DNA of 42,819 nt, taken from positions 1-42,819 of the IMG/VR virus record IMGVR_UViG_3300009151_000133; one strand, written 5' to 3'. Under the pieces are notes generated by a model. It saw only the letters and a list, made by a program, of their open reading frames with translations. It searched no databases and was not told the DNA's origin. A program made the translations under genes and the position numbers. This document shows, piece after piece, positions 1 to 34,070 of this stretch (positions within the stretch are counted from its first letter, which is position 1; each line of letters opens with the position of its first letter). The DNA comes from a virus.

Positions 1-1637
1 AAGAAAGGAGCTCCCCATTGATCACGACCTTTGCTTTTAGCATAGTCTATTTTGCCTTGTAACCATTCTTCGTTGGGTACATCAATGCTGAGACCTTCCG
101 CCACACCTTGCTTAACAAATTGAACATTTAATTTAGCATTTTTCCACAATGGATTTTTAGGATCCATTCTTTGTTGTAGCAACCATATAGCAGATACTCT
201 ATGTGCTCCATCTTCAAACTTGCCGTTTAACACTATTATTGGATCAAGTTGGGCTAATGACTCTGGATGTTTTTTAAAATACTCAGCATACTCTATTGCC
301 TTTTCAGTTACGTTCCAACTGTGGTAATCTTTAGCGTCCCAATCATCAACTACATTGTTATAGTAAGGCACACCGGGTATAGATGATATAATCTGGCCTA
401 CAGTCATTTGGCGAGTTTGTATGTTAGCATCAGAGCCAAACTGTTTTGGAGCACCTGAACTTGGTCCCGGTTGAGGGAAGCCCTCCGCCACACCTGACTT
501 GGTGGGTGGATAATATTTTACATCCACTACTTTAGTGCCAGAACCATCACTGTTCATTCTGAAATTATATTCAATCCAATCACCTGGATTGTGTGTGAGA
601 AAATACTCGATCACTTTCGGATCTCTGCGAATTTTTTCCGCCAATGGACCCAGCATCTGTAGCATTTTTTCTTGAATATTACTTTCACCTGGCTTGGTCA
701 CTGCCTGTTTTCCTGATTTGATTGTGTTCCAATTCTTTTGTGCAAATTCAGGATTGTACCAACGTTGAACCATTTTTGGGTCGGTCAATAACGGATCATT
801 GAGATATTTTTGAACTCCTGGACCAAGATACTTCAACATTGCCTGTTTGCGGTCTTGAATCCTCAATGGATCATTAGGATCTGGATCTTTGCCGCTGACC
901 AAGCCGGCAATATTGGTGATGATCACTGCTTCATCAATGCCACCGTCGCCCTGTTGAAAACTGCCAGGATCAACTGCAATTTTGGTCACAGCGCCACCCT
1001 TGCCTTGACCTGCCAGGGCCTGCCGAACGAAACTGGTGGCTTTTTCACCGTCGGGACTCATGTATGTGCCAATGTTGGCAGAACTTCCTGCTTTTCTCAA
1101 TAAGGGATAAGGCTTGCCAACACTGTCCTGTAATTGTTTTAATCTGTCAGATGACAGTATTGGTTCACCTCGATAAAACATATATGGTTGGTTTGATGCT
1201 TCCGCCACACTCGGCTTTTCAGGTGTCCACGACATACCCTTGCCGCCTTTGACAGTGGGTGTGAAACCTTGATCTCGGTAGAACTTGGTTAGTTTAGCTT
1301 GACTAACTTGACCTTTGTCCCAGGGAAACAATGTTAGCGTAATCCCATCTTGTCTGGCTAAATCTTGCAATACTTTCATGGCCCGAGTACCAACACCTTG
1401 ACGTAATGGATACGCCTGGAACCATTTGACTTCTACTGCATCTTTCTTGATCAGACTGGGAATTAAGTCAAACATGGCGAATTGCTGATCATCACCTTCA
1501 CCCCAGGTCATGACATGATTATTTTGCCACCTGCCAGGATACTCAGCATATACTTTGGCTATCCAAGCTCGTGCTTTACTCGGATCGGCGATACCTAATG
1601 TGTCATCTGCTTCTGGTATGAATTCATTTGCTCTCAT
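1..1637 (-). CDS. Partial multidomain polyprotein: leader, GNAT, ART-like, ParB/Srx-like modules
   Basis: The frame runs open from ATG 1637 to the window edge (545 codons), so the C-terminus is missing. Residues 1-9 (MRANEFIPE) look like a T4 capsid-targeting leader ending in Glu. A GNAT acetyltransferase module follows, with the acetyl-CoA loop RQGVG at 79-83 and a typical YRDQGF end. A module from about 148 has FYRGEP, GTYMSPDG and GIDEAVI, which could be the Arg, Ser and Glu motifs of an R-S-E ADP-ribosyltransferase. A ParB/Srx-like module has DGAHR. Modules are separated by SVAE|A (143-147), GVAE|G (382-386) and GVAE|G (511-515). It lies 7 nt after the stop of the upstream gene and has no clear Shine-Dalgarno, so translation is probably coupled. 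Domain names come from motifs only; the packaging role is inferred. Confidence 0.75.
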   Translation of the reverse strand, partial: MRANEFIPEADDTLGIADPSKARAWIAKVYAEYPGRWQNNHVMTWGEGDDQQFAMFDLIPSLIKKDAVEVKWFQAYPLRQGVGTRAMKVLQDLARQDGITLTLFPWDKGQVSQAKLTKFYRDQGFTPTVKGGKGMSWTPEKPSVAEASNQPYMFYRGEPILSSDRLKQLQDSVGKPYPLLRKAGSSANIGTYMSPDGEKATSFVRQALAGQGKGGAVTKIAVDPGSFQQGDGGIDEAVIITNIAGLVSGKDPDPNDPLRIQDRKQAMLKYLGPGVQKYLNDPLLTDPKMVQRWYNPEFAQKNWNTIKSGKQAVTKPGESNIQEKMLQMLGPLAEKIRRDPKVIEYFLTHNPGDWIEYNFRMNSDGSGTKVVDVKYYPPTKSGVAEGFPQPGPSSGAPKQFGSDANIQTRQMTVGQIISSIPGVPYYNNVVDDWDAKDYHSWNVTEKAIEYAEYFKKHPESLAQLDPIIVLNGKFEDGAHRVSAIWLLQQRMDPKNPLWKNAKLNVQFVKQGVAEGLSIDVPNEEWLQGKIDYAKSKGRDQWGAPF

Positions 1638-1644
1638 ATACGGC

Positions 1645-2514
1645 TTACATTACGTAAATATTGCCAACTGCACTTCTTAATACTTCAGCAAAATAGTCGG
1701 ACATGTCATCTGCTAATCCCTGTGCTTCATATTGTCTAGTAGACTCATCCCTATACTCCGGTTTTAACGTCATATATTTTGATGGCGTGCCCCAGTTTTG
1801 TTTTCCATAACCTAGATTAGCGGGCAATGGATTCAATGTTATTTTACCATCTTTGATATACTGAGCAAATAGTTCATATAGGAATTCGTATGGCCGTTTA
1901 ATTTGATTGCCACGGCTACTACGTTGTGTTCCTATGGCATTGAACAATGCATTATATTCCGGTGTTAGATCCCAGTTAGGAGCTCGTTGACTCTGGTTCT
2001 GCCCGGTTTTACCATATGCACGGTCTAATACTTGATTAACTGTACGGAAGAAGTATCCTTCGGCGTCGGGCCATGCACCTATTTTTGTATTCCTGCCACG
2101 GTTCCCAGCTTGAATAGCATGTCCAAATCTATGTGCCATGATCCAGGGTGTCATTAACTTTTTGGCCGCGCCCGAATTACCCACATACACTATTGTGATA
2201 GCATTTTCGCTGTTGGCTAAAATAGCCGCAGCATCTTTACCAAATATTGCTTTGATCAAGTCCGGTTCCATGGGGCCGTATTCATTGTATTTGCCGGTGC
2301 CGGGAATGTTGCTGAAAAATAATCTAAAATCGTAGGGTGTATTCTGCAGGAATTTCTGTGTCTTTAATTGGCTAACAGGATGTGGAATCAGCTTCTTATC
2401 CGCACCTCTAAATGGTCCTTGTTTGTCAAAGTTGCCCAGAGGCTGATAGTCAGCTAACGGGGCTTCCGTCACAGCTTGTTTACTAAGTTCAGTTATGAAT
2501 TCTACGGCTTTCAT
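1645..2514 (-). CDS. Putative head-packaged protein with HRFGH pseudo-metallopeptidase motif
   Basis: 289 aa. It starts with MKAVEFITE|L and has a second Glu-ending site, AVTE|A, at 14-18, so the first 17 residues look like a removable capsid-targeting leader. The core holds MAHRFGHAIQ (H128, R129, H132), which matches the zinc-binding helix of HExxH peptidases except that the catalytic Glu is Arg (codon AGA). A later LYELFAQYI helix could supply the third ligand. It may be an inactive peptidase fold, or a family that uses HRxxH. The ATG overlaps the stop of the upstream gene by 4 nt (ATGA). Function unknown; fold assignment tentative. Confidence 0.75.
   Translation of the reverse strand: MKAVEFITELSKQAVTEAPLADYQPLGNFDKQGPFRGADKKLIPHPVSQLKTQKFLQNTPYDFRLFFSNIPGTGKYNEYGPMEPDLIKAIFGKDAAAILANSENAITIVYVGNSGAAKKLMTPWIMAHRFGHAIQAGNRGRNTKIGAWPDAEGYFFRTVNQVLDRAYGKTGQNQSQRAPNWDLTPEYNALFNAIGTQRSSRGNQIKRPYEFLYELFAQYIKDGKITLNPLPANLGYGKQNWGTPSKYMTLKPEYRDESTRQYEAQGLADDMSDYFAEVLRSAVGNIYVM
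2488..2514 (-). repeat. 27-nt exact direct repeat coding the MKAVEFITE leader (copy 1)
   Basis: The 27 nt that encode MKAVEFITE are identical base for base to 3162-3188. Identity at silent positions indicates recent duplication or gene conversion of the leader alone, because the proteins diverge directly after it. Confidence 0.95.
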
Positions 2515-3188
2515 GTATACACCAAACTATCTATACGCTTATATTTAATATTAAACGCATTCATTAGTAATTCTACTTCCCGCAGACATTGATCTCGTGC
2601 ACCACCCATTAAATAAGCACCGTTAAACTGTTTTAGCTGTGCTACACTGGTCCAATTAACACTAATAGAATCTTCACCTAATTCTTGCATCGCTCCCATA
2701 ATCAATGATTGCTGTGGTGTTCGAGAATTAAATGGTGGAAACTGTAGATCTCTACTGTCAGATTTCTTTTGTTGGTATAACTCTCGTATAGTGGCAATGA
2801 TAGTTGCTGGTTCGACGCCTTGATCCATCCAAGACCTGAAATATCCATATCCTTTATCTACAATCTGAAAACGATTCCAATTTATAACTGGGCAATTGGG
2901 ATTTTCTATGTGCTCATCATTTTCTTCATCATATGAATATCTGACATCTTCTGGACAAATAGTATCATCCCAATATTGCTTTATATCTGCTACCGTATCA
3001 CCACTAAGCCCTTGATCTTCAGCATTAACAAACATCAATACAGGCCCGGTTTGTTTATTAACAAAATTAATAATCTCCGGAAATACAGCACTTTCGTCAC
3101 CATCATTCATACCACTATATTCGGGTTGAACATCCACAACTATACAAGGATGATTTGATCCTTCAGTTATGAATTCTACGGCTTTCAT
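2511..3188 (-). CDS. Putative head-packaged protein, possibly isochorismatase-like
   Basis: 225 aa. It begins MKAVEFITE|G, the same leader as the next gene, ending in a Glu-Gly cleavage-like site. The mature part starts with CIVVDVQ (Asp19), like the first strand and catalytic Asp of isochorismatase/nicotinamidase cysteine hydrolases. It ends with GGARDQCLRE (Cys201), placed like the catalytic Cys strand-helix of that fold. The intervening catalytic Lys was not identified, so this is a fold guess. ATGA overlaps link it to the genes on both sides, making it part of a translationally coupled chain from 5491 down to 1. Confidence 0.75.
   Translation of the reverse strand: MKAVEFITEGSNHPCIVVDVQPEYSGMNDGDESAVFPEIINFVNKQTGPVLMFVNAEDQGLSGDTVADIKQYWDDTICPEDVRYSYDEENDEHIENPNCPVINWNRFQIVDKGYGYFRSWMDQGVEPATIIATIRELYQQKKSDSRDLQFPPFNSRTPQQSLIMGAMQELGEDSISVNWTSVAQLKQFNGAYLMGGARDQCLREVELLMNAFNIKYKRIDSLVYT
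3162..3188 (-). repeat. 27-nt exact direct repeat coding the MKAVEFITE leader (copy 2)
   Basis: Identical to 2488-2514; see that entry. Both copies begin at the start codon of their gene. Confidence 0.95.
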
Positions 3189-5491
3189 TTCCCAGCCTTG
3201 GCCAAGCCTGCACCATTGTTAAAGCTAGGACTCCAGGATTCTGCATCAACTCCACCACGGGCCTTGCTCCAATCATATCCAGCACGATGTCCGGAACAAT
3301 CTTGTGTGCATGGACTGCCCAGAAACGATAACTCATCTAATTGCTCAGCATCACCAGGTATTAATAATTCTGGCATACGGTATTGACTAATATCAACTGG
3401 ATATGGCCGTAAGCTTTGTTTATATTCTTCAGCATATCGTTGCCGATCTTCCGGAGTTTTTGCCCTATAGAACTGATTTGCGATAGCCATATCCCCTACC
3501 AGGGTACCGGCAGCAATCGCTATCTTTTTTGGACCAAAGAATTTAAGTTTGTCACTATCTTTCATGGTTAGACTATAGAAGGTTGCTTCCCATTTATCCG
3601 GATGTAAAGCATATTTCACATTCTGTCTTTCCGGAACAATATCAGCTAATGTATCTTTACCTGGATGGAATCGCCCTAGCCGGGTTAACATCACTGCATT
3701 GTCTTCGTCTTCTTTAAGTAACAATGCCGGTGCACCCTTACTATCTACTTGCAAACCCATTTTATTTGCTTGTCGTGCAACTTCTCCTGGACGAACATCT
3801 TTAGTAAGGGCCATTACAAAACGAGGATCTCGAGCTTGTGCTCGGGTGGGGATATAACCGGCAGCACCTTCCGTAACTGAATCAAAATGTTCAGGATGCA
3901 ATTCAGCATAGTCACGCATCAACACACCGGCTAGGGAATTAGCTTGGTTTTCGTATTTGCTGCCTGTTTCACCACTGGTGTCAGGCATATCTTCTACCTC
4001 ACTTTGGCGTTGATGCACTAATTCATGTGCCACTGTACGCAATACATCCATGACATGTCTGTTGCCAATGCTTACTTCTAATGCCCCAGTCTCTGTGTTG
4101 AATCGTCCGAATGTTTTATTCCGTGCCGACCACTGTGGATCACGACGAAGCTGTATAGCAGGTGACTTTTCCAAGCCCAGATGCTCACTGCAGAATTTAA
4201 CAAAATCTGCGAGTATAGTCTTGGTACTAATCCTTTCTTTTTCCAGTATCATCTTAGTGGTTGGATTTACACCATCTGGGCTAATACTTGCATCTTCATT
4301 GGTTATTGTAATAGCAGGCAGTTCAGTATTAAACTTCAGGACTAATGCAGTTCTAAACTTATTATAATCCGCCGCTGTTGAAAAAGTAAAGGTGTGGAAC
4401 ACACTCAAATCTCTCATGATATCGGATGGATATGTTTTTTGTCCATGTGAGGACTTGAACACTAAACTATCTTGTGCTCTCGCCAGGAATTCCATATAAC
4501 TTGGCTGATCCAATGGCATTATCTTGTTATTAACCAGTGACAATGGAACCACAATATATTTTTGATTTTTCACTGGAGTCGTTGATAAGTCAAATAAAGA
4601 TACAAAATACTCCTTTTTATCTTGATCAATGGATTCTGTCAAATTACCTTTGATATAAAATTCTTCAAAGATACTCATTTTATCCTCCAGACTCAATCCT
4701 TCATCCAATGATGACCAGTCTAATCTTTTTGTATAATCTTCACTAACTGCAAAACCATACTTGACTGGCACTGGACGACGTTCAACCAAGCTTAGTTCTC
4801 GATCACGGCCGGCAGTTAAAGCATTAGCTAATCTGCCAATATCACCCTGTGTTCGTAGCATTTTAAATGCGAGATTTTCTGGACCAAACTCACCATTCCG
4901 AGCCAGACCTGCTTTACGCATATCTAATATCTTGTGCTTTAGATCAGACATGAGTTCTAAATCATCTGATGCGATGGCTTGTTTTATCCTTTGCTGCACA
5001 TCTTCATATTTGCTACGTGTGCTTACATCATTTACTGTGTGCTTTTGTCTACGTGGAACTTCCACCCAATCATTGTTCAACACACTATAAATGCCCTGGC
5101 TCACATGTGTTTGATTTACATCCTGCACATATAGTTCTACATCGTATCCGGAGATTTTAATATCATGTTTATCGTTGTATTCATACTTTTTTGCATTGAA
5201 TAATTCTTTATATACTTCGTTATTCATTTGTGGCAAATCTACCACCAGATGTAAATCTATATCACTGTGTGGAGTATAGTTATAAGCAGCATTAGAACCG
5301 GATATAGTTATATCCCGTAGTTCATAGCCGTTAACACCAAGGAATTCACGGAAATCATCTGCGATGCTTAATAGATGTCGGCGCACCTCCGGCAGCAAAT
5401 GTTCGTCTTTGCCAAAGAGTCGGGGATTCAGATGATCGTTAAATTTAACGGCATCTGCAAGATTATAGGATTCCAGCTGTTCAATGTTCAT
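3185..5491 (-). CDS. Polyprotein: pol-beta-type nucleotidyltransferase, HELVH peptidase, phage C-terminal modules
   Basis: 768 aa. Residues 60-85 hold GSNAAYNYTPHSDIDL (GS with Asp77/Asp79), the polymerase-beta nucleotidyltransferase signature. A zinc peptidase centred on AHELVH (H489, E490, H493) has a likely third ligand at E514. A module from 542 (GAAGYIPTRAQ, DPRF) is a type I associate with marine T4-like phages. A Cys-containing tail (CTQDCSGH) closes the protein. Glu-ending linkers fall at module borders: LDE|G 262-265, LTE|S 284-287, VTE|G 539-542, LDE|L 718-721. Unlike its downstream neighbours it lacks the MKAVEFITE leader. A late-promoter octamer sits 4 nt before the ATG. The enzymatic folds are fairly clear; substrates are unknown. 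Confidence 0.85.
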   Translation of the reverse strand: MNIEQLESYNLADAVKFNDHLNPRLFGKDEHLLPEVRRHLLSIADDFREFLGVNGYELRDITISGSNAAYNYTPHSDIDLHLVVDLPQMNNEVYKELFNAKKYEYNDKHDIKISGYDVELYVQDVNQTHVSQGIYSVLNNDWVEVPRRQKHTVNDVSTRSKYEDVQQRIKQAIASDDLELMSDLKHKILDMRKAGLARNGEFGPENLAFKMLRTQGDIGRLANALTAGRDRELSLVERRPVPVKYGFAVSEDYTKRLDWSSLDEGLSLEDKMSIFEEFYIKGNLTESIDQDKKEYFVSLFDLSTTPVKNQKYIVVPLSLVNNKIMPLDQPSYMEFLARAQDSLVFKSSHGQKTYPSDIMRDLSVFHTFTFSTAADYNKFRTALVLKFNTELPAITITNEDASISPDGVNPTTKMILEKERISTKTILADFVKFCSEHLGLEKSPAIQLRRDPQWSARNKTFGRFNTETGALEVSIGNRHVMDVLRTVAHELVHQRQSEVEDMPDTSGETGSKYENQANSLAGVLMRDYAELHPEHFDSVTEGAAGYIPTRAQARDPRFVMALTKDVRPGEVARQANKMGLQVDSKGAPALLLKEDEDNAVMLTRLGRFHPGKDTLADIVPERQNVKYALHPDKWEATFYSLTMKDSDKLKFFGPKKIAIAAGTLVGDMAIANQFYRAKTPEDRQRYAEEYKQSLRPYPVDISQYRMPELLIPGDAEQLDELSFLGSPCTQDCSGHRAGYDWSKARGGVDAESWSPSFNNGAGLAKAGK

Positions 5492-6616: not shown

Positions 6617-9600
6617 TTATCCTCTAAAAGGGTCTTCGTCTATGTAGTCCGGACCGTCGGTGAAATCCACACGATATTTGCCGGTTTCGGGATCGAGTCG
6701 TGTCACAGGCTTTTTGCCCTTGCGAGCAAGTTCTTTGCTGGCTGCTACTCTAGCTTTTAACCGACTTATAAGTTCGTCAGATCTATCATAATCGGGTACT
6801 TCGTCAGCCTCGGACATGGGTTTATGTTTGATCCATTCGTCGGGTATCATGTGATGTTTGTTCACAAACTTATCATGCAATTCTTCCGGAGTTATTTTGT
6901 GTTTTGCTGCCAGGTATTTCATCAAATGATCAATTGCCGCATAGTTGCTGTGTGGTTTCATATCGTGTTCAAGGTCGGTCACAGCATCTTCGTCTACCGC
7001 CGTTTCTCCTTTAAGTGCTTGTAACAATGCCCCGGCAACCACACGATCTTTTTCTTGTTCGTCGTTGGGTAACTGAGCATATTCTATGTTCATCAACTTT
7101 GCACGTTGTTGCAGTTTTGCTTCTAATTTACCAGCAGCTTTTAATTTCTCTGTATCGTCAAATTGCTCAGGATTTTGCACAAATGCTTTGGCTGTGACAT
7201 TCCATCCTTTGTGTATAGCATCGCTAATCTTTTCAATGTCTGTGACACCGGCATCGATCATGCGTTTAGCAAACTCTGCTGATTTTAAATTTGCTTGCCA
7301 ACCAAAAGTATTACCGGGACTGCTACGACCATACTGATAAGCATTATCTAATGCAGCATCACTGATAGTTGCCAGTTGTTGTATGCTTAACTGTGTTGCA
7401 TTTTCCTTGATACCCTGTATGTTTAGGGCAAAATTAGCACGTTTACGTTCTAATGGAGTACCATGAGCTTTAAGACTTTTTAGTTTTGTAGCGCCAATCT
7501 TCTTGTCAAGTGGAATGTGTTCTTGCTTGTGTAGCGCACCTTTCTTGACCAGTTTGGCAGCATCGGCTAGCGAGCCTTCCGCCACGCCTTGCTGTATTGT
7601 GCTTAGTCTAGCAAGTTCTTGTTCGCCTTCAGGAGTCAAAAACCAATAGCCGTCAGCATCTACAATCCATCCAGTGTCAGATAAACTGTCATACACTCTG
7701 CTTTGAGCACGACTTAGACTTTGACTATCTTCTTGAAATCCCAATCCATGATCATTTGCAACTTCAATAGCTTTGAGTAGCAAGGCCTTGCCATAACCTT
7801 TACCGCGCACATCATCAGTTACTTCTGCCTGATTGTGTACGTCATCAGTTTCGGGATCTCTAAAAAATGAAAAATGCCCAACATTTTTTCCATCAGCGAT
7901 TGCAGTAACAGTAAAACTACTTTGATAATTGTTAGTAGATGCTGTTTGGAATTGTACTGCTGATGCGTCAGCTTCATAAACCTGGTCTTCCTTAACCGCC
8001 TGTTGACTTTTATTTTCCAGTCTGACTAATTTCTTAACATGAGCGATAGCTTGATTTTTACTCATCATACCAATAGCAGGATTCTTCCTGTTCTTTTTGC
8101 GTTCTATGTCGTAGATAGTCCAGTATTGGTATGTGCCACCACCGTAGGATTTTAGTTTATGTCCTTCGGCAGGTTGCAACATGAATCTATCTTTTCCATC
8201 AACACTGATAGTTACTATAGATTTGTCATCTGAGATTTTGATATTTTCAGAGCCTTCCGCCACATCGTTGTCTTTGACTAAACGCAATGCAGTACCGGGT
8301 AAGTTATTTGCTTGGCCACCATCATCTAAATCAACATAATAAGTTTTTGGAGCACCGTTAAAAGCACCATGTTTAATTTCTCTAATCCAACCTGTCTTAC
8401 CAGAATCTGGGCCTTTAACAATCTTTACTTTCTTAGTCAGACTCTTGCTTTCCGCCACAGCCTGTCGAACGGTTGTTGGCCTATTTTGGTACCTAATTGT
8501 TCCAATCATCGGTGAAATTGCGGGATCTGTTATATTTTTTCCTGGTCTAGTAGAATTAGGAATAGGCATTTCTTTAACTCCTGCCTTTGCAAAAAGATTT
8601 CTAATTTCTTGTTGTTTAGCAGAGTCAACTGTAGGATTTATCATATATCCCACTATGCCAAGATCTTTGAATGGTATATAATTTAAAGGTGTCAATATAA
8701 CTTCTTCATATTCTGATCCAGTACTACCTCCTGCAGATGCAACAGATTTGCCTGCACTGGTTTTAACAAAATAACTAATAGCTTGTTTTATTTTTGATTG
8801 TGCATCGGCCAATGCTTGCTGATTAGTTTTATCTGCAAAATAAGTTTTAGTAGCAAAAATAACAAATTGACGACTGCCTGCTATATTTGCTCCTGCAATT
8901 TTAGATAGTACTACAAGATCGTCTGGTGTTAAATTTTCTACTCCGTCGGCTAAGCTATACAAGTCGGTTACTCGATTTACTCCAGGTAATGCGTTTAGTA
9001 TAAATCTGAGCGCATTTAGCTTATCGGCTGGTCGATCAACCGACTGCATTTTATTTTTTTGTCTAAGAATAGACTGATCTACTACAAATATAACTCCATT
9101 GGCAATACCGGATGACCCTTGATTATCATCGTCTTTTGTTGTAAGGGCATATCTCCAGTTTCTTGTAAAACTAACAGCTCTAAGTTTGGACCCCGTCCGT
9201 TGTTGATTACTAGTATTAGTTTTAAGACCGTTAATAATGATATCATTTAAATCGTTAATGTCAGTACCAGTAGCATGATAAAGATAATTGCCGCCTACTG
9301 CTTCATTCAAACTTTCCTCACTGCCAATTGCAGTATCCAGCATTTTGACCACAGTCTGTGCTAATTTTGGATTGCTTTGTGTTTTAGGATACAAACTCAT
9401 CACCAATGCTGTTTTGCGTTTATCATTCAATTTGGGCCATGCTGTACGTATCTCTGTGGCAGATGTCATTCCCGGTCCGAACTCCACTGTGGGCAAGTAG
9501 GCCATATACCCATTCTTGTTCATGGGATTTAATTCTGCTGTGATGGGCTGGAGATATGCCGGCGACCCATCTTTTTTAGTACCACCTGCCTGTGGTGGTT

Positions 9601-9898
9601 TCGTTCTATCTTTTTCACTACGGACGAATATTAGTGCAGTAGTCTCCGGATCATAATTCTGTGTTATTTCTCTTGCTTGGAATGGGCTTTTGACTTGTAT
9701 AAAATGCCCGGCTTCAACTCCAGCTAATTTTGCTAGTTTTTCTTTTATGGCAAATGGGAATGGACGCTCAGAAGTATCATTGGTTGCTGCCACATATACA
9801 TCTGCATCAGGAAATGCCTCGCGAGCAGATGTATACAGAGCCATGTGCCCGGCATGAAACGGATGGAAACCTCCCGGCATGATCACTAATTTTTTCAT
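6617..9898 (-). CDS. 1,093-aa polyprotein: HxGH nucleotidyltransferase, ART-like, KOW-like, GNAT and further modules
   Basis: ATG 9898 is chosen because the PGGFHPFHAGH domain starts directly after it; the upstream extension begins at a TTG inside the previous gene. Modules: nucleotidyltransferase with HAGH (15-18) and SATEIR (146-151), as in NMN adenylyltransferases; an ADP-ribosyltransferase-like module with YHATG (207-211) and VSFTR; a KOW/SH3-like module with KIVKGPDSGKTG; a small beta module; a GNAT module with RGKGYG (698-703); then helical modules. Linkers at the borders: LNE|A 197-200, VAE|S 481-484, VAE|G 546-549, VKE|D and VYE|A 635-643, VAE|G 772-775, IKE|N 830-833, MSE|A 1028-1031. 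It has no MKAVEFITE leader. The polyprotein reading is inferred from the regular linkers. Confidence 0.85.
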   Translation of the reverse strand: MKKLVIMPGGFHPFHAGHMALYTSAREAFPDADVYVAATNDTSERPFPFAIKEKLAKLAGVEAGHFIQVKSPFQAREITQNYDPETTALIFVRSEKDRTKPPQAGGTKKDGSPAYLQPITAELNPMNKNGYMAYLPTVEFGPGMTSATEIRTAWPKLNDKRKTALVMSLYPKTQSNPKLAQTVVKMLDTAIGSEESLNEAVGGNYLYHATGTDINDLNDIIINGLKTNTSNQQRTGSKLRAVSFTRNWRYALTTKDDDNQGSSGIANGVIFVVDQSILRQKNKMQSVDRPADKLNALRFILNALPGVNRVTDLYSLADGVENLTPDDLVVLSKIAGANIAGSRQFVIFATKTYFADKTNQQALADAQSKIKQAISYFVKTSAGKSVASAGGSTGSEYEEVILTPLNYIPFKDLGIVGYMINPTVDSAKQQEIRNLFAKAGVKEMPIPNSTRPGKNITDPAISPMIGTIRYQNRPTTVRQAVAESKSLTKKVKIVKGPDSGKTGWIREIKHGAFNGAPKTYYVDLDDGGQANNLPGTALRLVKDNDVAEGSENIKISDDKSIVTISVDGKDRFMLQPAEGHKLKSYGGGTYQYWTIYDIERKKNRKNPAIGMMSKNQAIAHVKKLVRLENKSQQAVKEDQVYEADASAVQFQTASTNNYQSSFTVTAIADGKNVGHFSFFRDPETDDVHNQAEVTDDVRGKGYGKALLLKAIEVANDHGLGFQEDSQSLSRAQSRVYDSLSDTGWIVDADGYWFLTPEGEQELARLSTIQQGVAEGSLADAAKLVKKGALHKQEHIPLDKKIGATKLKSLKAHGTPLERKRANFALNIQGIKENATQLSIQQLATISDAALDNAYQYGRSSPGNTFGWQANLKSAEFAKRMIDAGVTDIEKISDAIHKGWNVTAKAFVQNPEQFDDTEKLKAAGKLEAKLQQRAKLMNIEYAQLPNDEQEKDRVVAGALLQALKGETAVDEDAVTDLEHDMKPHSNYAAIDHLMKYLAAKHKITPEELHDKFVNKHHMIPDEWIKHKPMSEADEVPDYDRSDELISRLKARVAASKELARKGKKPVTRLDPETGKYRVDFTDGPDYIDEDPFRG

Positions 9899-9902
9899 AC
9901 AG

Positions 9903-9910
9903 TATTTAGT
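9903..9910 (-). promoter_or_regulatory. Late promoter-like ACTAAATA, 4 nt from ATG
   Basis: ACTAAATA-CTGT-ATG on the minus strand. It has the same 4-nt spacing to the start codon as the late octamers at 5496, 19184 and 20235. It lies just past the stop of the upstream gene. Confidence 0.5.
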
Positions 9911-9914
9911 GAAA

Positions 9915-10361
9915 TCACATGTTCTCAAGTATCCACAAATAGATTGGTGTTTTGAACGTCAGGATAACATCACCATTGCAGCCCATGTTCTCAAAAAACT
10001 CATGTTTTGCCATTGGCTGTGTACCATTGGTATCATGCATATAAGCAGTGGTTTTGTCTAAGAGATCGGTGATGTCAATCCCTTCAAAAGACAATTCTGT
10101 TATCCTGATATAAGCATCTTGTATGATCGTGCCTTCAGCATCAATTCGAGTATGTTCTGGCAATTTTCCACTTAGACGGAATATTAATGTATGATCACCA
10201 TCTACATCGGGCATATGATGTTCAAATTTCACTGGACTCAGTTCATGCATATAAGCAGAATGGAATATTTCTCGATCATCAAGCAATATTTGCATGCTTA
10301 GGGGCACAGCGGGGTCAGTGGTTTCTATCTGACAGTTAAACTGCACTGTGTTATCACTCAT
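9915..10361 (-). CDS. Uncharacterised beta-rich protein, probable virion component
   Basis: 148 aa. No known catalytic motif. Alternating hydrophobic strands (FNCQIETTDP, LSMQILLDD, HTLIFRLSGK) suggest a beta-sandwich similar to small binding or decoration proteins of T4-like cyanophages. AAAAGG precedes ATG 10361. It sits between other beta-rich small proteins and the large polyprotein gene, consistent with late expression. Function unknown. Confidence 0.8.
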   Translation of the reverse strand: MSDNTVQFNCQIETTDPAVPLSMQILLDDREIFHSAYMHELSPVKFEHHMPDVDGDHTLIFRLSGKLPEHTRIDAEGTIIQDAYIRITELSFEGIDITDLLDKTTAYMHDTNGTQPMAKHEFFENMGCNGDVILTFKTPIYLWILENM

Positions 10362-10930: not shown

Positions 10931-11671
10931 TTATTTATGAGCTATTATATCAATGGTGCTGCGTACTAATTTAGCCGATATTAAATTTAACATGAGAATA
11001 TGGCTCATACTGTCATGATCAATAAAATGTGAATACCGTATCCAAGTCCTACGTTCAGTATCGACCCAGTTGGCAAGTTCGGGTGATAAGCGTATCTCTG
11101 CTGCATTTGCTTTAAAAAAACTCACCAAACTGCGTTTTTGTTCATGTGTAAGGGTGGAACTTCTAAAATATGTTCTATGTCGATGCTGCGGATTGTGCCG
11201 CACGATCGTGCCTTTTTCCCGTGTGATAATAGCTTGAGTAAATTGCCTAGTCATAAAAGAACTCTGACTAGCCGTGGAGTCACTCCGGGCAGTAAGATCA
11301 TTCAATGCAGATAGTAATTTTAACTCATTTGTATAAACATAAACCCGATTGGAATAAAATATTAATTTGACCTCCTGGGCCGTGTTTTGTAACAGATCCA
11401 CAAATTCAAATAACTCATTTGCATTGTTTAACTCTTTGCCAGTTAGTGCATCGTTTAACTCCATGCCCGGTGTTTGTTTCCACTTTATTCCCCAGTCTCG
11501 ATCCCACAGGCGGCGTTTTTTCAGCGACTTTATCACAGCGTCTTTGTCTGCTGTAATCGAATTTGCCGTACGATGTGGGCGTAGGGTACTGGCATTTTTT
11601 ATCCCGATACATGCACAGTATTTCCATCGGGAATGAAACAATCTGTCAGATTCTACTGGGGTAATTTTCAT
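10931..11671 (-). CDS. Uncharacterised protein, translationally coupled to clpA-like gene
   Basis: 246 aa, basic, no recognised domain. The first 60 residues are rich in Arg, Lys and Trp (WKYCACIGIKN, RLWDRDWGIKWKQ). A middle stretch (EVKLIFYSNRVYVYTNELKLL) resembles part of a small alpha/beta fold. The ATG lies in a 4-nt overlap with the stop of the ClpA-like gene, so it should be made together with that unfoldase; a link to its targeting is possible but unproven. Confidence 0.75.
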   Translation of the reverse strand: MKITPVESDRLFHSRWKYCACIGIKNASTLRPHRTANSITADKDAVIKSLKKRRLWDRDWGIKWKQTPGMELNDALTGKELNNANELFEFVDLLQNTAQEVKLIFYSNRVYVYTNELKLLSALNDLTARSDSTASQSSFMTRQFTQAIITREKGTIVRHNPQHRHRTYFRSSTLTHEQKRSLVSFFKANAAEIRLSPELANWVDTERRTWIRYSHFIDHDSMSHILMLNLISAKLVRSTIDIIAHK

Positions 11672-13935
11672 TGTTCGATCCGAATATAACCGTTGTCATC
11701 CACGATGGGAGTAGGTTCAATCTTGGTTGCGATTATCTCAAAATCCACTTTATCTTCTTTCATGACTGCTGTTACTGTGCAATCAACTAGGCGATCAAAT
11801 AATATACGTTTGCTTAATGGTATACGGATAAGTTGATCAATTTTACGTCCCAGGGGTCTTGCACCCATTTTAGGATCATAACCAGTCTTGGCCAAATGAT
11901 CCACCACAGTTTCATCCAGGTTCAGGGTAATGTTCTTGGGAGTCAGACTTGCTTTAAGTTCATCAACAAACTTGATCACGATCTTCTTCACAGCTAATTG
12001 ATCTAGTTTGGTAAATTTGCAAATGCAATCAATACGATTACGGAACTCCGGCTTGAAAAAGTCCTTCATTGCTTTATCTTCTTCGCCAACACGTTCCAAT
12101 GCTCCACCAAATCCAATGTTGTTATTTTCGTTTTCCTTTGCACCTAAGTTACTGGTCATGATAATGATGCAATTCTTAATATCAATCGTTTTGCCATTGC
12201 TGCTGGTTATCTTTGCTTCGTCCAGCATCTGCAACAAGATGTTGGTCACATCCGGATGTGCTTTTTCAATCTCGTCAAATAGTATGATTGAGAAGGGATT
12301 CTTGCTGAGATCAGATATTAGTTTGCCACCACCCACATTACCATCTTCAAATCCCACATAGCCCGGGGGAGCACCAATCAAGCTGGATACTGTATGACGT
12401 TCCTGATACTCGCTCATATCATACTTTAACAGTTTCATATCTAGGTTCTTGGCAAGCAATTTAGCTAGTTCAGTCTTGCCTGTGCCAGTTGGTCCAAGGA
12501 ATATGAAACTGGCCATGGGTCGTGTGGCATTTCCAATACCGGAAAAATTGATATAAACACGTTCCAATACTGCATCCACAGCTGAATCTTGACCGTAAAG
12601 CTTTTGCTTGATATTGCTTTCCAGCTCAACAATCTTGGTGCTACGTTCATTCTGTAAACGATCAATGGGCACACTGGTAGTTTTTGCTACTTGAGCCATG
12701 ATCATGTCTTTATCTATTGTGACTCTGCCTTTGTCCTTCACACGCTCACGGGCACAAGCCGCATCCAGCAGGTCAATGCTCTTGTCAGGATTTTTGCGAT
12801 CATGTATATAACGACTGCTGAGTTCCACAGCTGATAGTATTGCCTCTGTGGAGATCTCCACATTATGGAAGTGTCCAAGCCGTGGGCTAAGTCCAGTAAG
12901 GATAAGTTCTGTGGTTTTGTTCGAAGGTTCATCTATGCTTAGCCTATGGAAACGTCGCATAAGAGCGCGATCTTTTTCAAAGCTTTCGTAATATTCTTCC
13001 CATGTTGTACTTGCGATAACCTTTAGTTTACCTTTGGTAATAGCCGGTTTCAACATATTAGCAAAGTCAAGTGTGCTGCCACCCCCACCACCAGCACCTT
13101 TCATGGTATGTGCTTCATCAATAAACAGTATGCAATTCTTCTTGGTTTCAAGGGCGGAGATTACCATTTTGAATTTCTCTTCAAATTCACCACGATACTT
13201 TGATCCGGCCAACAAGCTACCGATCTCAAGACTCCAGACTTCGTGATCCCGGATAAACTCCGGCACTGTGCCTTTAACTATTTCCTGTGCCAATCCTTCT
13301 GCGATACAAGTTTTACCCACACCCGGATCACCCACCATGAGCACGTTGGCTTTGAATCGTCGAGCAAGCACAGTAATCATTTCCGCTAATTCTTCCTGAC
13401 GTCCAATCAGGGGTTCGAGTTTATCGTTTTCGGCTGCTGCTGTAAGTCCGATGCAGTATTCTTCCAGTATCTCGTCAGCTTGTTTGTTGGATAGTTTGTT
13501 TGTGCTTTTGTTATAATTCTTCTGCCAGAAATCAACAAACTCTTGTTTCTTAACACCATGTTTGAGCAGGAAGTAATGTGCATGGCTGTTATTTTCTGCC
13601 ATTATACTAAGATAGATATCGATTATCTCCATACCTTGACGGCCGGTGAACATGACCTGTGTCAGTGCCCGATTAAACATACGTTCTAACGCATTAGTTC
13701 TACGTGGAGGACTGTCAGAATTCCTAACAAGATTTACCAAGCCATTTAAGTATGTGTCGATGTCAGCATCCATAAGATCAACATCAACACCAAAGTTCTC
13801 AAGAAGATGTCTAAATGGCCGATGTCGGACCGTGGCCAACAGTAGATGTTCTGTTAGCACATATTCATGTTTTTTCTCTGTGGCAATCTCAACTGCAAGA
13901 TTTACTATCAGTTCAATTTCGGGATTTTGATTCAA
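11668..13935 (-). CDS. clpA: ClpA/ClpC-like AAA+ unfoldase
   Basis: 755 aa. It has an N-terminal Clp repeat region (about 1-130) and two AAA+ modules. D1: Walker A GDPGVGKT 202-209, Walker B ILFIDEA 269-275, pore KYRGEFE 246-252. D2: Walker A GPTGTGKT 481-488, Walker B ILFDE 551-555, pore GYVGF 525-529. The long ClpB middle coiled coil is absent. An IGF tripeptide at 607-609 sits where ClpA/ClpX carry the ClpP-docking loop, so it could work with host ClpP. The start is TTG 13935, chosen because AAGGA lies at proper spacing and the homologous N-terminus begins there. An early promoter precedes it. Likely role: remodelling or degrading host proteins. Confidence 0.95.
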   Translation of the reverse strand: MNQNPEIELIVNLAVEIATEKKHEYVLTEHLLLATVRHRPFRHLLENFGVDVDLMDADIDTYLNGLVNLVRNSDSPPRRTNALERMFNRALTQVMFTGRQGMEIIDIYLSIMAENNSHAHYFLLKHGVKKQEFVDFWQKNYNKSTNKLSNKQADEILEEYCIGLTAAAENDKLEPLIGRQEELAEMITVLARRFKANVLMVGDPGVGKTCIAEGLAQEIVKGTVPEFIRDHEVWSLEIGSLLAGSKYRGEFEEKFKMVISALETKKNCILFIDEAHTMKGAGGGGGSTLDFANMLKPAITKGKLKVIASTTWEEYYESFEKDRALMRRFHRLSIDEPSNKTTELILTGLSPRLGHFHNVEISTEAILSAVELSSRYIHDRKNPDKSIDLLDAACARERVKDKGRVTIDKDMIMAQVAKTTSVPIDRLQNERSTKIVELESNIKQKLYGQDSAVDAVLERVYINFSGIGNATRPMASFIFLGPTGTGKTELAKLLAKNLDMKLLKYDMSEYQERHTVSSLIGAPPGYVGFEDGNVGGGKLISDLSKNPFSIILFDEIEKAHPDVTNILLQMLDEAKITSSNGKTIDIKNCIIIMTSNLGAKENENNNIGFGGALERVGEEDKAMKDFFKPEFRNRIDCICKFTKLDQLAVKKIVIKFVDELKASLTPKNITLNLDETVVDHLAKTGYDPKMGARPLGRKIDQLIRIPLSKRILFDRLVDCTVTAVMKEDKVDFEIIATKIEPTPIVDDNGYIRIEQ

Positions 13936-13998: not shown

Positions 13999-14781
13999 TT
14001 ACGCATAATCATCTATCTGTTTTTTAATCAAATCTACCAGTTCAATTGGGATATCGGCAGGAATAGATGTTTGTATCTGTACCAAAAGATCTCCTGGAGG
14101 ACCTTCGCGTTGTGTAAGCCCGCGACTTTTTAATTTCATTATAGTTCCGGGCTGTGTTCCTGCCGGAATGGTAAGTTTGAGTTGATTGCCCAAGATATCA
14201 CGCACTATAGTTTCACATCCGACTATCAATTGCCATATACCGATGGTATGTATTGTGCTTAGGGTCAGTCCCTGCCGTTGCCATGCTGGATGTGGATGGA
14301 TTCGAAACGTGATAACAAGATCACCACCGTTGGGGGATAATTTGGCATAATGTACATTATCACCATCATTGATACCGGGTGGTATTTCAATTTCTAATGT
14401 GGCCGTGCCATTGTTGGTTCCTACCCCAACTGTTTTTCTGCCGGCAGTGGCAACATCAGCCAGGGTTATCCATAAGGCCATTCTATCTTGCCGTGTTCGT
14501 TGTTGTTGTGGACGTTGTCCAAACATCGTGAATATAGAATCAAAATCGAATTGTCCAGCATTGCCAAACCCTGGTGGTATATGCTGCTGCCGCGGATTAT
14601 CATATGCAGCACGGCGTCCTGGATCGCTAAGAGTATCGTATGCGATTTGTATATTTTGGAAAGTAGCTGTATCGCCGCCCTTATCCGGATGATTCTTGCT
14701 GGCTAAACGTCGATAGGCAGTCTTGATCTCATCCGGAGTGGCTGTTTTGGATATGCCAAGTGTGCCATAATAATCGTTCAT
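13999..14781 (-). CDS. dnaJ: DnaJ/CbpA-like co-chaperone
   Basis: 260 aa from ATG 14781. The J domain (YYGTLGISK, HPDKGGD) contains the essential HPD. There are no CxxCxGxG zinc repeats and the Gly/Phe linker is short, so it is CbpA-like (class II/B) with two C-terminal beta domains (ADVATAGRK, PPGIND, IPAGTQPG). Longer frames start at an unlikely upstream codon and lack a ribosome site. TATAAT ends 7 nt before the ATG, so the mRNA should be leaderless. It likely steers host DnaK toward phage proteins and works beside the phage ClpA-like and GroES-like proteins. Confidence 0.93.
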   Translation of the reverse strand: MNDYYGTLGISKTATPDEIKTAYRRLASKNHPDKGGDTATFQNIQIAYDTLSDPGRRAAYDNPRQQHIPPGFGNAGQFDFDSIFTMFGQRPQQQRTRQDRMALWITLADVATAGRKTVGVGTNNGTATLEIEIPPGINDGDNVHYAKLSPNGGDLVITFRIHPHPAWQRQGLTLSTIHTIGIWQLIVGCETIVRDILGNQLKLTIPAGTQPGTIMKLKSRGLTQREGPPGDLLVQIQTSIPADIPIELVDLIKKQIDDYA

Positions 14782-14788
14782 AGAATAT

Positions 14789-14817
14789 ATTATAGCACAC
14801 CTTGCACTAAAAAGCAA
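14789..14817 (-). promoter_or_regulatory. Sigma70-type early promoter of dnaJ, predicts a leaderless mRNA
   Basis: TTGCTT (14812-14817), 17-nt spacer, TATAAT (14789-14794) on the minus strand, then 7 nt to the ATG. Same -35 variant as the promoters of the ClpA-like gene and the 24169-24654 gene. Confidence 0.85.
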
Positions 14818-16539: not shown

Positions 16540-17169
16540 TCAAGCAGTCAGCACTTCAAGATTATGGATCATATGTGTTTTGCGTTCTTCTAAGCCCAAA
16601 ATACCACCATTGATCTTCTTGGTCATGGCAGTGATATTCCGTTCATCTGCTAAGGCATTTAAGTTATTGCAATTCCAGAAAAATGCAGCACTTTCAACAG
16701 CACCTTCTAGGGTTTCAGTATATGCGACTGTTTCTTCCAAGGTACGACCAATACTCTCAGCAAATGTCTCATAGTTGGCTTTGCCGGTGAGTTGTATAGC
16801 ACCGCGCCCACGATATAGCCAGCCATCGCCACTTGCTTCATCGCCATTGCCCAGGCGTGAAGAATAGACTTTGTTGGCAATGGCTTCGGGATTACGGTTA
16901 TAAGGAACGGCAGCGTCTTCGGATATAAATCGTGTTGGCCATGTTGCATGTAATCCCTTGGCTGAATAGTTAAGATTTTCGTGCAATATAGTAAAGTCTG
17001 CTGATTCGTGGCCGCATTGTGCAAGGAATGCAGCCACTCTATCAACAGTATTAATTTCATATCGGGGTAGCACAGCACTTAATGCGTCAAACAATGCTGC
17101 TGGATCTGTGTTACGGGCCAAACATTGTGCTAATTTCTCTGGGGTAAAGTCAAAACTCCAATTTTCCAT
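16540..17169 (-). CDS. Endolysin, glycoside hydrolase family 19 (chitinase-like lysozyme)
   Basis: 209 aa, a single catalytic domain. AAFLAQCGHES holds the GH19 catalytic Glu (E55) and LHENLNYS the second acid (E64). YRGRGAIQLTGKANY is the family signature around residues 119-133. No signal peptide is seen, so it needs the holin to reach the wall. AGGAGAG precedes ATG 17169, and a late-like ACTAAATA lies about 20 nt further upstream. It leads the lysis block and cleaves peptidoglycan glycan strands. Confidence 0.93.
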   Translation of the reverse strand: MENWSFDFTPEKLAQCLARNTDPAALFDALSAVLPRYEINTVDRVAAFLAQCGHESADFTILHENLNYSAKGLHATWPTRFISEDAAVPYNRNPEAIANKVYSSRLGNGDEASGDGWLYRGRGAIQLTGKANYETFAESIGRTLEETVAYTETLEGAVESAAFFWNCNNLNALADERNITAMTKKINGGILGLEERKTHMIHNLEVLTA

Positions 17170-20246: not shown

Positions 20247-21737
20247 ATGCAGGATATAACACAGATCCAATCCGTCGATATTGTTATTATAGCTGTACCC
20301 GGAGTGATGAGAAAATCGCCACAAGCTGCTCCTGCACTACTGAAAGGTAGTGTAGAAGCAGCTGGCTTTACCTGCACTACTATTGATTTTAATATTCGAT
20401 TTTATCAAGAAGTAAACAATTACCACGCACTTGAAACTTATTTCGGAATAGGATTAAATACCGAAGAACATGATCGAGCAGACGCATTAGTTGAAAATTG
20501 GACAAAAGATATATTAAAACTAAATCCAAAATTTATTGGAATTAGTGTGTTCACTCTTCAGAATAGAATAGCAACAAAATTATTCTGTCAACATATTCGA
20601 AAATTATCAAGTGTTAAAATAATTTTAGGTGGGCAAGGACTGTCTGATGGGGGAATTTTAGGGTTATCTGGATTTGGCAAATCTATGTTTGATGAAAAAT
20701 TAACAGATTACTGGATACGTAGCGAAGGAGAAGTTAGTCTTGTTGAATTGCTTAAAAACAATATAGATTATCCTGGTATTAATGCCGACACTTTTAAACA
20801 AATTGACGATTTGAATAGTATTCCTTTTCCAAATTATGATGATTACGAATTAGATTTATATGAAAGGAGAAGCTTGCCAATAACTGGCAGCAGAGGATGT
20901 GTGAGATCTTGTAGTTTTTGTGATATCCATGATCACTGGAAGTATAGATACCGTAGTGGTCAGAATATGGCTGACGAAATTTTTCATCTCAACGAAAAAT
21001 ATGATATTAACGAATTTAATTTTTCAGACAGTTTAATAAATGGAAATCTTAAAGAATTCACAAAATTTACAAAAATTCTAGCAAATTATAATAGACAGTT
21101 TAATAAGCAGTTGACTTGGTCAAGCCAATTTATTGTTAGAGCTAGGAGTGGACAAGTAAACGAAGAGTATTGGCAAGATATCGCCGATTCAGGTGGGTTT
21201 AATTTAAGTATCGGTGTTGAGACTGGCAGTGATAGTGTTCGATTACATATGAATAAAAGATTTTCTAATGAAGATCTTGATTATACTATGACTATGCTAT
21301 CAAAATATAATATTACCTGCACATTTTTAATGATTGTGGGATACCCAACTGAAACTGAAAAAGATTTTCAAGATACAATAGATATGTTTACTCGCTATAA
21401 ACAATATACAAACATTATAACAAATACTAATATCAGTAGCGCAATGGGAATACTTCCCGGAACTCCATTATATTATAATGCTAAACAGCTCAATCTTGAG
21501 GTTGACAAGTATGAAATCAATTGGGTTGCATTAGATAATCCAACACTAACATTAGAACGCCGTATGCAAAGAAGGCAAATTCTTAAAGATCATGTATTAA
21601 AATTGGGTTTCGCTATACCAGATAATTCAACGACACACATGTTACAAGTGTTTGATAAGCAAAAAGAAATGTTTAAGTCTCGACTTGATCTAAAACGAAT
21701 GATAAGAATTAAAAATGGCACGTTAAATGCCGCGTAA
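20247..21737 (+). CDS. Radical SAM enzyme with N-terminal cobalamin-binding-like domain
   Basis: 496 aa. The N-terminal 170 residues (VDIVIIAVPG, KFIGISVFTLQN, KIILGGQGLS) fit the Rossmann-like B12-binding domain of class B radical SAM proteins. The classic DxHxxG is not visible, so cobalamin binding is doubtful. The radical SAM core has SRGCVRSCSFC (C218, C222, C225) for the 4Fe-4S cluster, then GVETGSD and FLMIVGYPTET. It is visibly more AT-rich than the minus-strand genes nearby. It overlaps the oxygenase-like gene, so the two probably act on the same substrate, which is unknown. Confidence 0.9.
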   Translation: MQDITQIQSVDIVIIAVPGVMRKSPQAAPALLKGSVEAAGFTCTTIDFNIRFYQEVNNYHALETYFGIGLNTEEHDRADALVENWTKDILKLNPKFIGISVFTLQNRIATKLFCQHIRKLSSVKIILGGQGLSDGGILGLSGFGKSMFDEKLTDYWIRSEGEVSLVELLKNNIDYPGINADTFKQIDDLNSIPFPNYDDYELDLYERRSLPITGSRGCVRSCSFCDIHDHWKYRYRSGQNMADEIFHLNEKYDINEFNFSDSLINGNLKEFTKFTKILANYNRQFNKQLTWSSQFIVRARSGQVNEEYWQDIADSGGFNLSIGVETGSDSVRLHMNKRFSNEDLDYTMTMLSKYNITCTFLMIVGYPTETEKDFQDTIDMFTRYKQYTNIITNTNISSAMGILPGTPLYYNAKQLNLEVDKYEINWVALDNPTLTLERRMQRRQILKDHVLKLGFAIPDNSTTHMLQVFDKQKEMFKSRLDLKRMIRIKNGTLNAA

Positions 21738-24731: not shown

Positions 24732-25097
24732 TTAAGCGTTGTCACTCATAGTATCATCAGCAGGCTGGCTATCGGATACAAGTAGGATATCTTTAGGATC
24801 GATCTTACGGATAGTATTTTTCCCATTTTCATCTTCAATCTCAACACCACGTGTCCATCGACCATGTGCTACACAAACCCATTGTCCAGTACTAACATCC
24901 TGTTGTTCTGGACCAGTTGAGTATACCTTACCCCATCGTGGCCTAATGCCAGAACTTTTTCCATTATCACCAGGCAATACAATACCTCCGGTAGTAAAGC
25001 GTTCGGTAAACACCATATCGGCTACTAGCACTGTATCTTTAAGAGCCCGCAGTTGAAATTGAGAAATACGATGTGGAGCATAGGCAAATTTATTCAT
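24732..25097 (-). CDS. GroES/gp31-like co-chaperonin
   Basis: 121 aa. LRALKDTVLVADM begins the GroES beta-barrel. ERFTTGGIVLP is the mobile loop that docks on GroEL. The C-terminal strands (KIDPKDILLVSD) close the barrel. An insertion (DNGKSSGIRPRWG) recalls phage members such as T4 gp31, which replaces host GroES to fold the major capsid protein. The ATG overlaps the upstream stop, with AAAAGGAAG as ribosome site. Confidence 0.9.
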   Translation of the reverse strand: MNKFAYAPHRISQFQLRALKDTVLVADMVFTERFTTGGIVLPGDNGKSSGIRPRWGKVYSTGPEQQDVSTGQWVCVAHGRWTRGVEIEDENGKNTIRKIDPKDILLVSDSQPADDTMSDNA

Positions 25098-30944: not shown

Positions 30945-31248
30945 AGCCGCAGCCGCAAGAGCCAGTAGAATCGGGGTTACTAATTATAAAACTGCTTCCA
31001 GTGATATCTTCTACAAAATTAATAGTCGAATTCTTTAAATATTCCCAACTCATTGAGTCGATCAATACAGTCACTCCGCTAAACTCTAATAAAAAATCAT
31101 CATCTTCTGCGGTTTCTTCTAGCGAGAATCCTTGCTGAAAACCACTGCATCCGCCGCCTTGCACAAATACTCTGAGTTTAATTGCAGGGTTGTTTTCTTC
31201 AGCCAATATCTCTTGTATTTTTGTTATTGCACTTGGTTCGAGTGTCAT
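30928..31248 (-). CDS. A-type Fe-S carrier (IscA/ErpA/HesB-like)
   Basis: 106 aa, full family length. Three ligand cysteines are present: GGGCSGFQ (C34) and CGCG near the end (C98, C100). It would accept and pass Fe-S clusters, for example to the two radical SAM proteins encoded here or to host enzymes. The ATG overlaps the SOD stop (TAATG). Related genes occur in some T4-like marine phages. Confidence 0.92.
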   Translation of the reverse strand: MTLEPSAITKIQEILAEENNPAIKLRVFVQGGGCSGFQQGFSLEETAEDDDFLLEFSGVTVLIDSMSWEYLKNSTINFVEDITGSSFIISNPDSTGSCGCGSSFSM

Positions 31249-31799
31249 TAAATTCTTTCATTACAAACATTCCAATTGATAATTTTCCAAATATCATCAA
31301 GATATTTAGATTTATTCCATTGGTATTGCAGCGAATAAGCATGTTCCCATACATCAACAAGTACACAGATATCCGTTCTTACCGCATGATTCCGTATGAT
31401 TTTTATTTCACCGGTTGTGCTAAGATAGCACCAACCACTACCCTGTATAGACATCGCTTGCTCTTTAAATGCGATGCGGAAATCATCGTAAGTTTTGAAC
31501 TTGCTTTCGATTAATTCCAATACTGCTCCACGTGGGCGATTTGCCCCTTTTGGTGCTTGTAGTTGTGGGAAGAATTTGTTATGTAAAAAGGATCCGGCAC
31601 GGTTAAAATCTGCATCTCCTTCGCCCGCATTATAGCGTTTAGCATAGGTTTTTGCAAGATGTTCATAATGATACTCTAGGGTATCTGCTGACATCACCGG
31701 GTCTAGATCTTTAAGACCATATGGCAAAGGTGTAGTTTCAAGCTTTGCTGGATGTGTAGTTGCTTCTACTATCTGTTGGAAATTATCTAAGGTGTCCAT
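31248..31799 (-). CDS. sodB: Fe/Mn superoxide dismutase
   Basis: 183 aa. All four metal ligands are in place: H44 (EYHYEH), H73 (FLHNKFF), D149 and H153 (VDVWEHAY); the YLDDIWKIINW tail also matches. It dismutates superoxide. The second-sphere Gln that tunes the metal is absent: Gly69 occupies the Fe-SOD position and His138 (RNHAV) the Mn-SOD position, so metal preference cannot be read directly. The N-terminus carries about 18 extra residues. No signal peptide, so it is cytoplasmic. GTAAATATTC near the ATG may be a late promoter. Confidence 0.93.
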   Translation of the reverse strand: MDTLDNFQQIVEATTHPAKLETTPLPYGLKDLDPVMSADTLEYHYEHLAKTYAKRYNAGEGDADFNRAGSFLHNKFFPQLQAPKGANRPRGAVLELIESKFKTYDDFRIAFKEQAMSIQGSGWCYLSTTGEIKIIRNHAVRTDICVLVDVWEHAYSLQYQWNKSKYLDDIWKIINWNVCNERI

Positions 31800-34048: not shown

Positions 34049-34070
34049 ACTAAGCAAGTACTTGGATGAC

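Follow-up and report, generated by a model that had tools for sequence, protein, structure and literature searches.

The first 10 residues of the T4 internal protein IPIII suffice for packaging; residues 4 and 7 of this leader act in targeting, and residues 8 and 10 in processing (PMC9026906). The protease gp21 cleaves after L/I-x-E, and IPII and IPIII have a common propeptide (PMC9026906). Cleavage of Alt falls at ITE-6, and Glu is the residue after which prohead proteases cut (PMC5694885). The leader is the sole common part of Ip1-3, proteins that block type IV restriction enzymes (PMC12373910). In the DNA of the neighbouring genes ipII and ipIII the leaders are identical at 30 of 30 nt, and the bodies that follow match at 19 of 60. 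For a different class, the polyvalent proteins of phages and conjugative elements, autoproteolysis by built-in peptidases has been proposed (PMC5512222).

We analysed an IMG/VR virus record of 42,819 bases (the window). The initial annotation had reported that two adjacent genes, here A and B, open with MKAVEFITE encoded identically at every base in front of unrelated bodies, and that a third gene carries a relative of this leader, MRANEFIPE. All three observations held when the features were located:

3162-3188, minus strand: MKAVEFITE leader that opens gene B, with E9↓G10 as the predicted scissile bond
2488-2514, minus strand: MKAVEFITE leader that opens gene A, base for base as in gene B
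1611-1637, minus strand: leader MRANEFIPE of the third gene, on an ORF running off the contig end
2511-3188, minus strand: gene B, 225 aa, leader plus cysteine-hydrolase-like body (predicted isochorismatase/nicotinamidase fold, from AlphaFold, VIA-align and invariant residues)
1645-2514, minus strand: gene A, 289 aa, leader plus body with an HRFGH motif and a weak zincin-like fold (best Z only 3.7)
2464-2475, minus strand: AVTE↓APLADY, a further predicted site of gene A, whose Glu (residue 17) does not vary among homologues
3185-5491, minus strand: gene C, polyvalent-type protein with a weak Pol-beta-type nucleotidyltransferase match and an HELVH motif, its stop overlapping the gene B leader ATG

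The leader DNA, ATGAAAGCCGTAGAATTCATAACTGAA (27 nt), occurs exactly twice in the window, with 0 mismatches between the copies (27/27 nt), and a degenerate search allowing up to 3 mismatches returned the same two copies only (0 in 100 shuffles). Identity runs from the ATG to the Glu codon: upstream of the ATG the two genes have 0 nt in common, and the residue right after the leader Glu is G in gene B and L in gene A. BLASTP gives no match between the two bodies, and an ordinary tandem duplication of genes A and B is ruled out by this lack of similarity. Independent convergence on one peptide and one codon set would be helped by strong constraint on the leader and by biased codon usage. However, identical coding of MKAVEFITE, given the peptide and the codon usage of the window, has a chance probability of P = 0.0015, and copying of DNA is therefore favoured over convergence for the twin leaders. 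Moreover, identical twins on unrelated, adjacent bodies were found within single loci of three genomes (the window, L014 and L087; three pairs), whereas none of the 3572 leader pairs compared between loci on unrelated bodies was identical, which makes convergence very improbable.

It had further been proposed that the leader is a swappable unit, maintained by gene conversion or copied recently, and that proteins starting M(K/R)AxEFI(T/P)E should appear with many different bodies in related genomes. We collected 60 IMG/VR loci encoding relatives of body B, to which genome stretches were later added, and scored the pattern M[RK]x(1-3)[EDQ][FIL][ILV]xE at the start of ATG ORFs, with the residues after each Met shuffled as a control. 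Such leaders were present as predicted. The pattern opens 96 distinct ORFs, against an average of 0.86 (maximum 5) in shuffles, and their bodies form at least 42 families by single linkage, a conservative count in that polyproteins join unrelated modules. A DNA version of the pattern, run over 17 records, gave 39 matches against 0 in the control. Leader genes reach a density of nine in 12 kb (L091), and 61 of the 65 found in the first 60 loci share the same orientation. Among the cargo families are GNATs, Arr-type ADP-ribosyltransferases, amidoligases and ASCH proteins, several of these matches being weak, and one cargo matches a PHROG of protein kinases inhibiting host transcription. Leader-free homologues, which would have spoken for the opposite, were not found as a rule: homologues of both bodies A and B keep the same kind of leader with other residues, or carry the site inside a polyprotein.

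The gene starts themselves offer another explanation, namely that the leader is a translation-coupling cassette in which selection acts on the ATGA overlap and the early codons and not on the peptide. In the window the gene B stop overlaps the gene A start in an ATGA, as the gene C stop does the gene B start; 35 of the 96 leader genes begin in an ATGA shared with the stop upstream, another 15 have a 1-nt overlap, and K/R at the second place favours ATGA. However, ATGA overlaps are common in phages and require no such peptide, and the Glu and a hydrophobic residue at P3 persist inside polyproteins that have neither the leader codons, nor its length, nor a start codon. We thus give translation coupling little credence.

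This persistence is clearest for the gene B family: in 27 of 28 distinct contexts the Glu precedes the VIVVDVQ anchor by exactly 6 residues, with a hydrophobic residue two positions ahead of the Glu, while the remaining leader varies (MRYYNLLE, MKLIE, MIPFKQYIAE). In some phages body B is internal to longer proteins, where it follows the junctions SLNE↓G, DLAE↓G, AINE↓G, PLEE↓G or YIKE↓S. Its AlphaFold model has a pLDDT of 88.8, with leader residues 1-10 at about 49. Foldseek alone gave no match at E <= 0.001; the predicted fold could be assigned to the isochorismatase/nicotinamidase superfamily because VIA-align matched the model to 3eef (Z 10.7, rmsd 3.1, 122 aligned), the top rows all falling in the same superfamily, and because D19, K112 and C201 are invariant among 36 homologues. 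By analogy, these residues would be the Asp-Lys-Cys triad of a predicted hydrolase. Neither gene A, gene B nor ORF 3-1637 has a Pfam match, and the bodies of these three have no relatives in annotated phages.

In gene A, the second predicted site lies 8 residues after the leader. Its Glu (E17 in window numbering) is one of 20 invariant columns in 29 sequences, and order in the predicted model begins near residue 18-21, the body being of high confidence and the leader of low (pLDDT about 49). The homologue L097 reads MRSQEFITE↓APLADY where the window gene reads MKAVEFITE↓LSKQAVTE↓APLADY. L097 joins its leader directly to APLADY, and the comparison suggests that gene A gained its leader upstream of a junction, AVTE↓A, that it already had. 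As for the fold of gene A, a zincin-like identity was considered and no assignment was made (best Z 3.7).

A fixed register is also seen in a third family. An Fe/Mn superoxide dismutase (SOD; PF02777, PF00081) encoded at 31248-31799 (minus strand) of the window has an N-terminus that ends IVE↓A. Across 40 distinct phage homologues the peptide before the body is highly variable, yet by inspection the Glu is in place in 40 of 40, and [ILV]xE[AGS] is found in 39 of 40. Hence the Glu keeps one register in three body families (B, A and phage SOD) while other leader residues vary. The window SOD is predicted to be packaged in the head and injected. Elsewhere in the window are a chaperone set (minus strand; ClpA/ClpB-like AAA+ protein, 11668-13935; DnaJ, 13999-14817; Cpn10-like protein, 24732-25097), two radical SAM proteins (20247-21737, plus strand; 32873-34090, minus strand), a weak GH19 chitinase-like match (16540-17169, minus strand) and a Hydrolase_2 cell wall hydrolase (35688-36272, minus strand).

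A Glu at the predicted cut point raises the question of the protease. Of the 17 relatives that reach 200 kb, 16 encode a gp21-type prohead protease (PF03420, Peptidase_S77), which was not seen in G005 (262 kb); the window record is a 42.8-kb fragment, too short to hold it. The head cassette of the relatives runs portal, small core proteins, protease, scaffold and capsid protein, names that reflect gene order and likeness to the T4 cassette. Judged on the capsid protein or the clamp loader, the nearest cultured phages are PA5oct-like Pseudomonas phages, Vibrio phage 2.275.O and Sinorhizobium phage Phosso. The strict leader DNA pattern has two matches in Phosso and none in PA5oct, Vibrio 2.275.O or T4; the leaders of PA5oct and T4, whose spacing or residues do not fit it, came to light when the proteins were read. 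One of these is PA5oct EST35_0150, which lies between the portal and protease genes, starts MKINDIITE↓GYYN and is annotated as a structural protein by ESI-MS/MS. Its homologues in G008 and G016 carry the leaders MKAKDLLVE and MRSKEFLRE.

Because of the spread of the leader, its fixed Glu register, the T4 ipII/ipIII parallel, the protease in relatives and the PA5oct head protein, we interpret the leader, with a probability of about 0.86, as a T4-type capsid targeting sequence (CTS) that ends in a predicted prohead-protease site, (I/L)xE↓, and that would pack unrelated cargoes and then be removed. In the proposed mechanism, the N-terminal peptide M-K/R-x-x-E-F/I-I/L-x-E would dock the cargo on the prohead core, a gp21-type prohead protease would cut after the Glu and free the mature cargo inside the head, and the mature cargo would be ejected with the DNA. 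The packaging machinery would read the leader only, so that any body fits, and copying from one gene to its neighbour would carry over the whole leader, ATG to scissile bond, in one piece. Since many of these leaders depart from the T4 CTS in their first residues, docking is less secure than cleavage. Short N-terminal tags on many proteins can in general be sorting signals, and the leader could likewise be a common signal that sorts proteins in the host or marks them for degradation, with no link to the head. This is highly improbable: the leader is not hydrophobic like a Sec signal, a Glu at P1 suits prohead proteases, and a head-cassette protein whose annotation places it in the virion bears the tag too.

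Sites of a similar kind recur within two longer ORFs of the window, both read as polyproteins:

3-1637, minus strand: leader-bearing mosaic polyprotein of at least 4 modules, open at the contig end
1200-1211, minus strand: SVAE↓A junction
483-494, minus strand: GVAE↓G junction, 5' border of a conserved 129-aa module
96-107, minus strand: GVAE↓G junction, 3' border of the 129-aa module, with the exact word GGTGTGGCGGAA
6617-9928, minus strand: leaderless polyprotein with a nucleotidyltransferase, later a GNAT and a widely shared C-terminal module, and internal VAE sites
8450-8461, minus strand: AVAE↓S junction
8255-8266, minus strand: DVAE↓G junction
7577-7588, minus strand: GVAE↓G junction (GGCGTGGCGGAA)

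Thus VAE followed by G, A or S recurs in both the ORF with the third leader and ORF 6617-9928. In Pfam, the GNAT of ORF 6617-9928 is above cut-off and the nucleotidyltransferase-like match below it, and in annotated phages this ORF has weak local relatives only. The HELVH motif of gene C was spotted by eye and has no Pfam peptidase match. About 24 other polyproteins contain the 129-aa module, flanked by unrelated sequence and in most cases bordered by VAE on both sides. Modules also switch between leader-led and internal positions: LSVDVPNE stands after the leader ITE in L014, L020 and L028 and after GVAE in the window and L015, and a GNAT module stands behind a leader in L015 but within the chain in the window. 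In polyproteins of L197, L160, L169 and L015, a second recurrent short piece, NFADGKxPGRKG, was seen after VAE or E.

Over 1934 non-redundant ORFs (600,226 aa), GVAEG was observed 129 times against 0.95 expected and GVAE 200 times against 10.9 expected, with 5 occurrences of EAVG and 7 of GVAD. The DNA is frozen too: GGTGTGGCGGAA is the coding sequence in 166 of 236 distinct GVAE contexts despite its rare codons (GTG makes up 19% of Val codons and GCG 9% of Ala codons), and pairwise identity of the word is 0.50 against 0.019 expected. Since loci were fetched by protein and not by GVAE DNA, this figure is not circular, though ORFs that share a module are not independent. Conservation extends over about 20 bp around the word and is at background level beyond; in large genomes the copies are clustered at few loci. 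The 20-mer has 3 matches in 257 Gb of bacterial genomes, which we take as near chance, and PA5oct, Phosso, Vibrio 2.275.O and T4 lack the word. In a scan of the collection, the longest ORF reads the word in the GVAE frame at 156 of 156 distinct exact occurrences. A frame-independent DNA signal was rejected on this count, and the strict reading frame makes a DNA-binding role for the word less likely. Homogenisation within genomes only was also rejected, identity being 0.48 within contigs and 0.50 between them. The simplest account of the frozen DNA is that modules recombine at the short shared word, which would keep it uniform between phages.

Could QGVAEG be a flexible linker only, between domains of uncut polyvalent proteins? 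It is Gly-rich and sits at domain borders, and many-domain polyvalent proteins are known (PMC5512222). Yet the same modules start after a leader ITE↓G elsewhere, and the polyprotein junctions of the B family (SLNE, DLAE, AINE, PLEE, YIKE) keep [IL]xE and not the linker sequence. Moreover, some GVAE sites lie 2-7 codons ahead of a stop, where a linker is unneeded, and one lies directly before the leader of the next gene (L376). We thus regard a mere linker as unlikely, and read QGVAE↓G, which separates modules in mosaic polyproteins, as a predicted protease-site linker and a recombination joint for shuffling packaged effectors. The same protease would cut QGVAE↓G junctions of linked polyproteins into separate effectors, even if the Val at P3 of GVAE falls outside the strict T4 L/I-x-E rule. 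That the polyproteins are cut at these sites in the head, one chain delivering several cargoes, is in our estimation probable. More tentative, at somewhat under an even chance, is the broader proposal that the in-frame element of about 20 bp, AGCAAGGTGTGGCGGAAGGC, encoding (K)QGVAE↓G, is at once a prohead-protease site and a homology joint, by which large uncultured T4-like phages would reshuffle their packaged effector modules, inside polyproteins as well as from polyproteins to CTS-tagged single genes and back.

A leader or a GVAE-bounded position would single out candidate injected effectors among the anonymous genes of uncultured giant phages. The candidates include GNATs, ART-like proteins, a cysteine hydrolase and a superoxide dismutase, and such cargo lists may point to new counter-defence functions because T4 internal proteins are anti-restriction factors. 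The GVAE joint, if true, would be a natural system that builds processed polyproteins by recombination at a protease site. No description of GVAE-jointed polyproteins was found in the papers searched, most subscription journals lying outside the coverage; as far as those papers show, they are an undescribed variant.

The closest parallel for the leader remains T4. IPI, IPII, IPIII and Alt likewise have a short N-terminal leader ending in (I/L)xE (here MKAVEFITE and MRANEFIPE); there as here the leader is common to unrelated bodies, and its DNA is identical in the neighbours ipII and ipIII. The gp21-type protease of T4 has its counterpart in the relatives, and ART-like proteins are among the bodies here. 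The E-F-I-x-E core of the T4 leader MKTYQEFIAE, which includes F7, I8 and E10 of IPIII, matches the window leaders, but its targeting Tyr (Y4) has no counterpart in them, and where T4 starts MKTYQE, leaders here usually start M-K/R-x-x-E. In the searches made, the bodies show no homology to IPI-III, cargoes are several times more numerous per genome than in T4 (up to 9 in 12 kb), and GVAE-jointed polyproteins are present here and not seen in T4. In phiKZ and SPN3US, head proteins are cut after Glu by a gp21 relative, a kind of site also predicted here, and SPN3US gp53 and gp54 have identical N-termini on diverged bodies, as in our twins (PMC5694885). On the other hand, SPN3US propeptides are mostly longer than 100 residues, with the motif AxE, and GVAE polyproteins are not described there (PMC5694885). 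The leader most likely belongs to the known T4 CTS kind, newly met in uncultured giant phages. For the GVAE-jointed polyproteins, the nearest known kind is the polyvalent proteins, which are also predicted to be injected and join several unrelated domains per chain (Iyer et al. 2017, PMC5512222), as do the nucleotidyltransferase, GNAT and metallopeptidase-like motif here. ORF 6617-9928 combines at least 2 disparate predicted enzymatic domains in one chain, a trait of that class; what sets our polyproteins apart is that each border has a prohead-protease-like site with frozen DNA.
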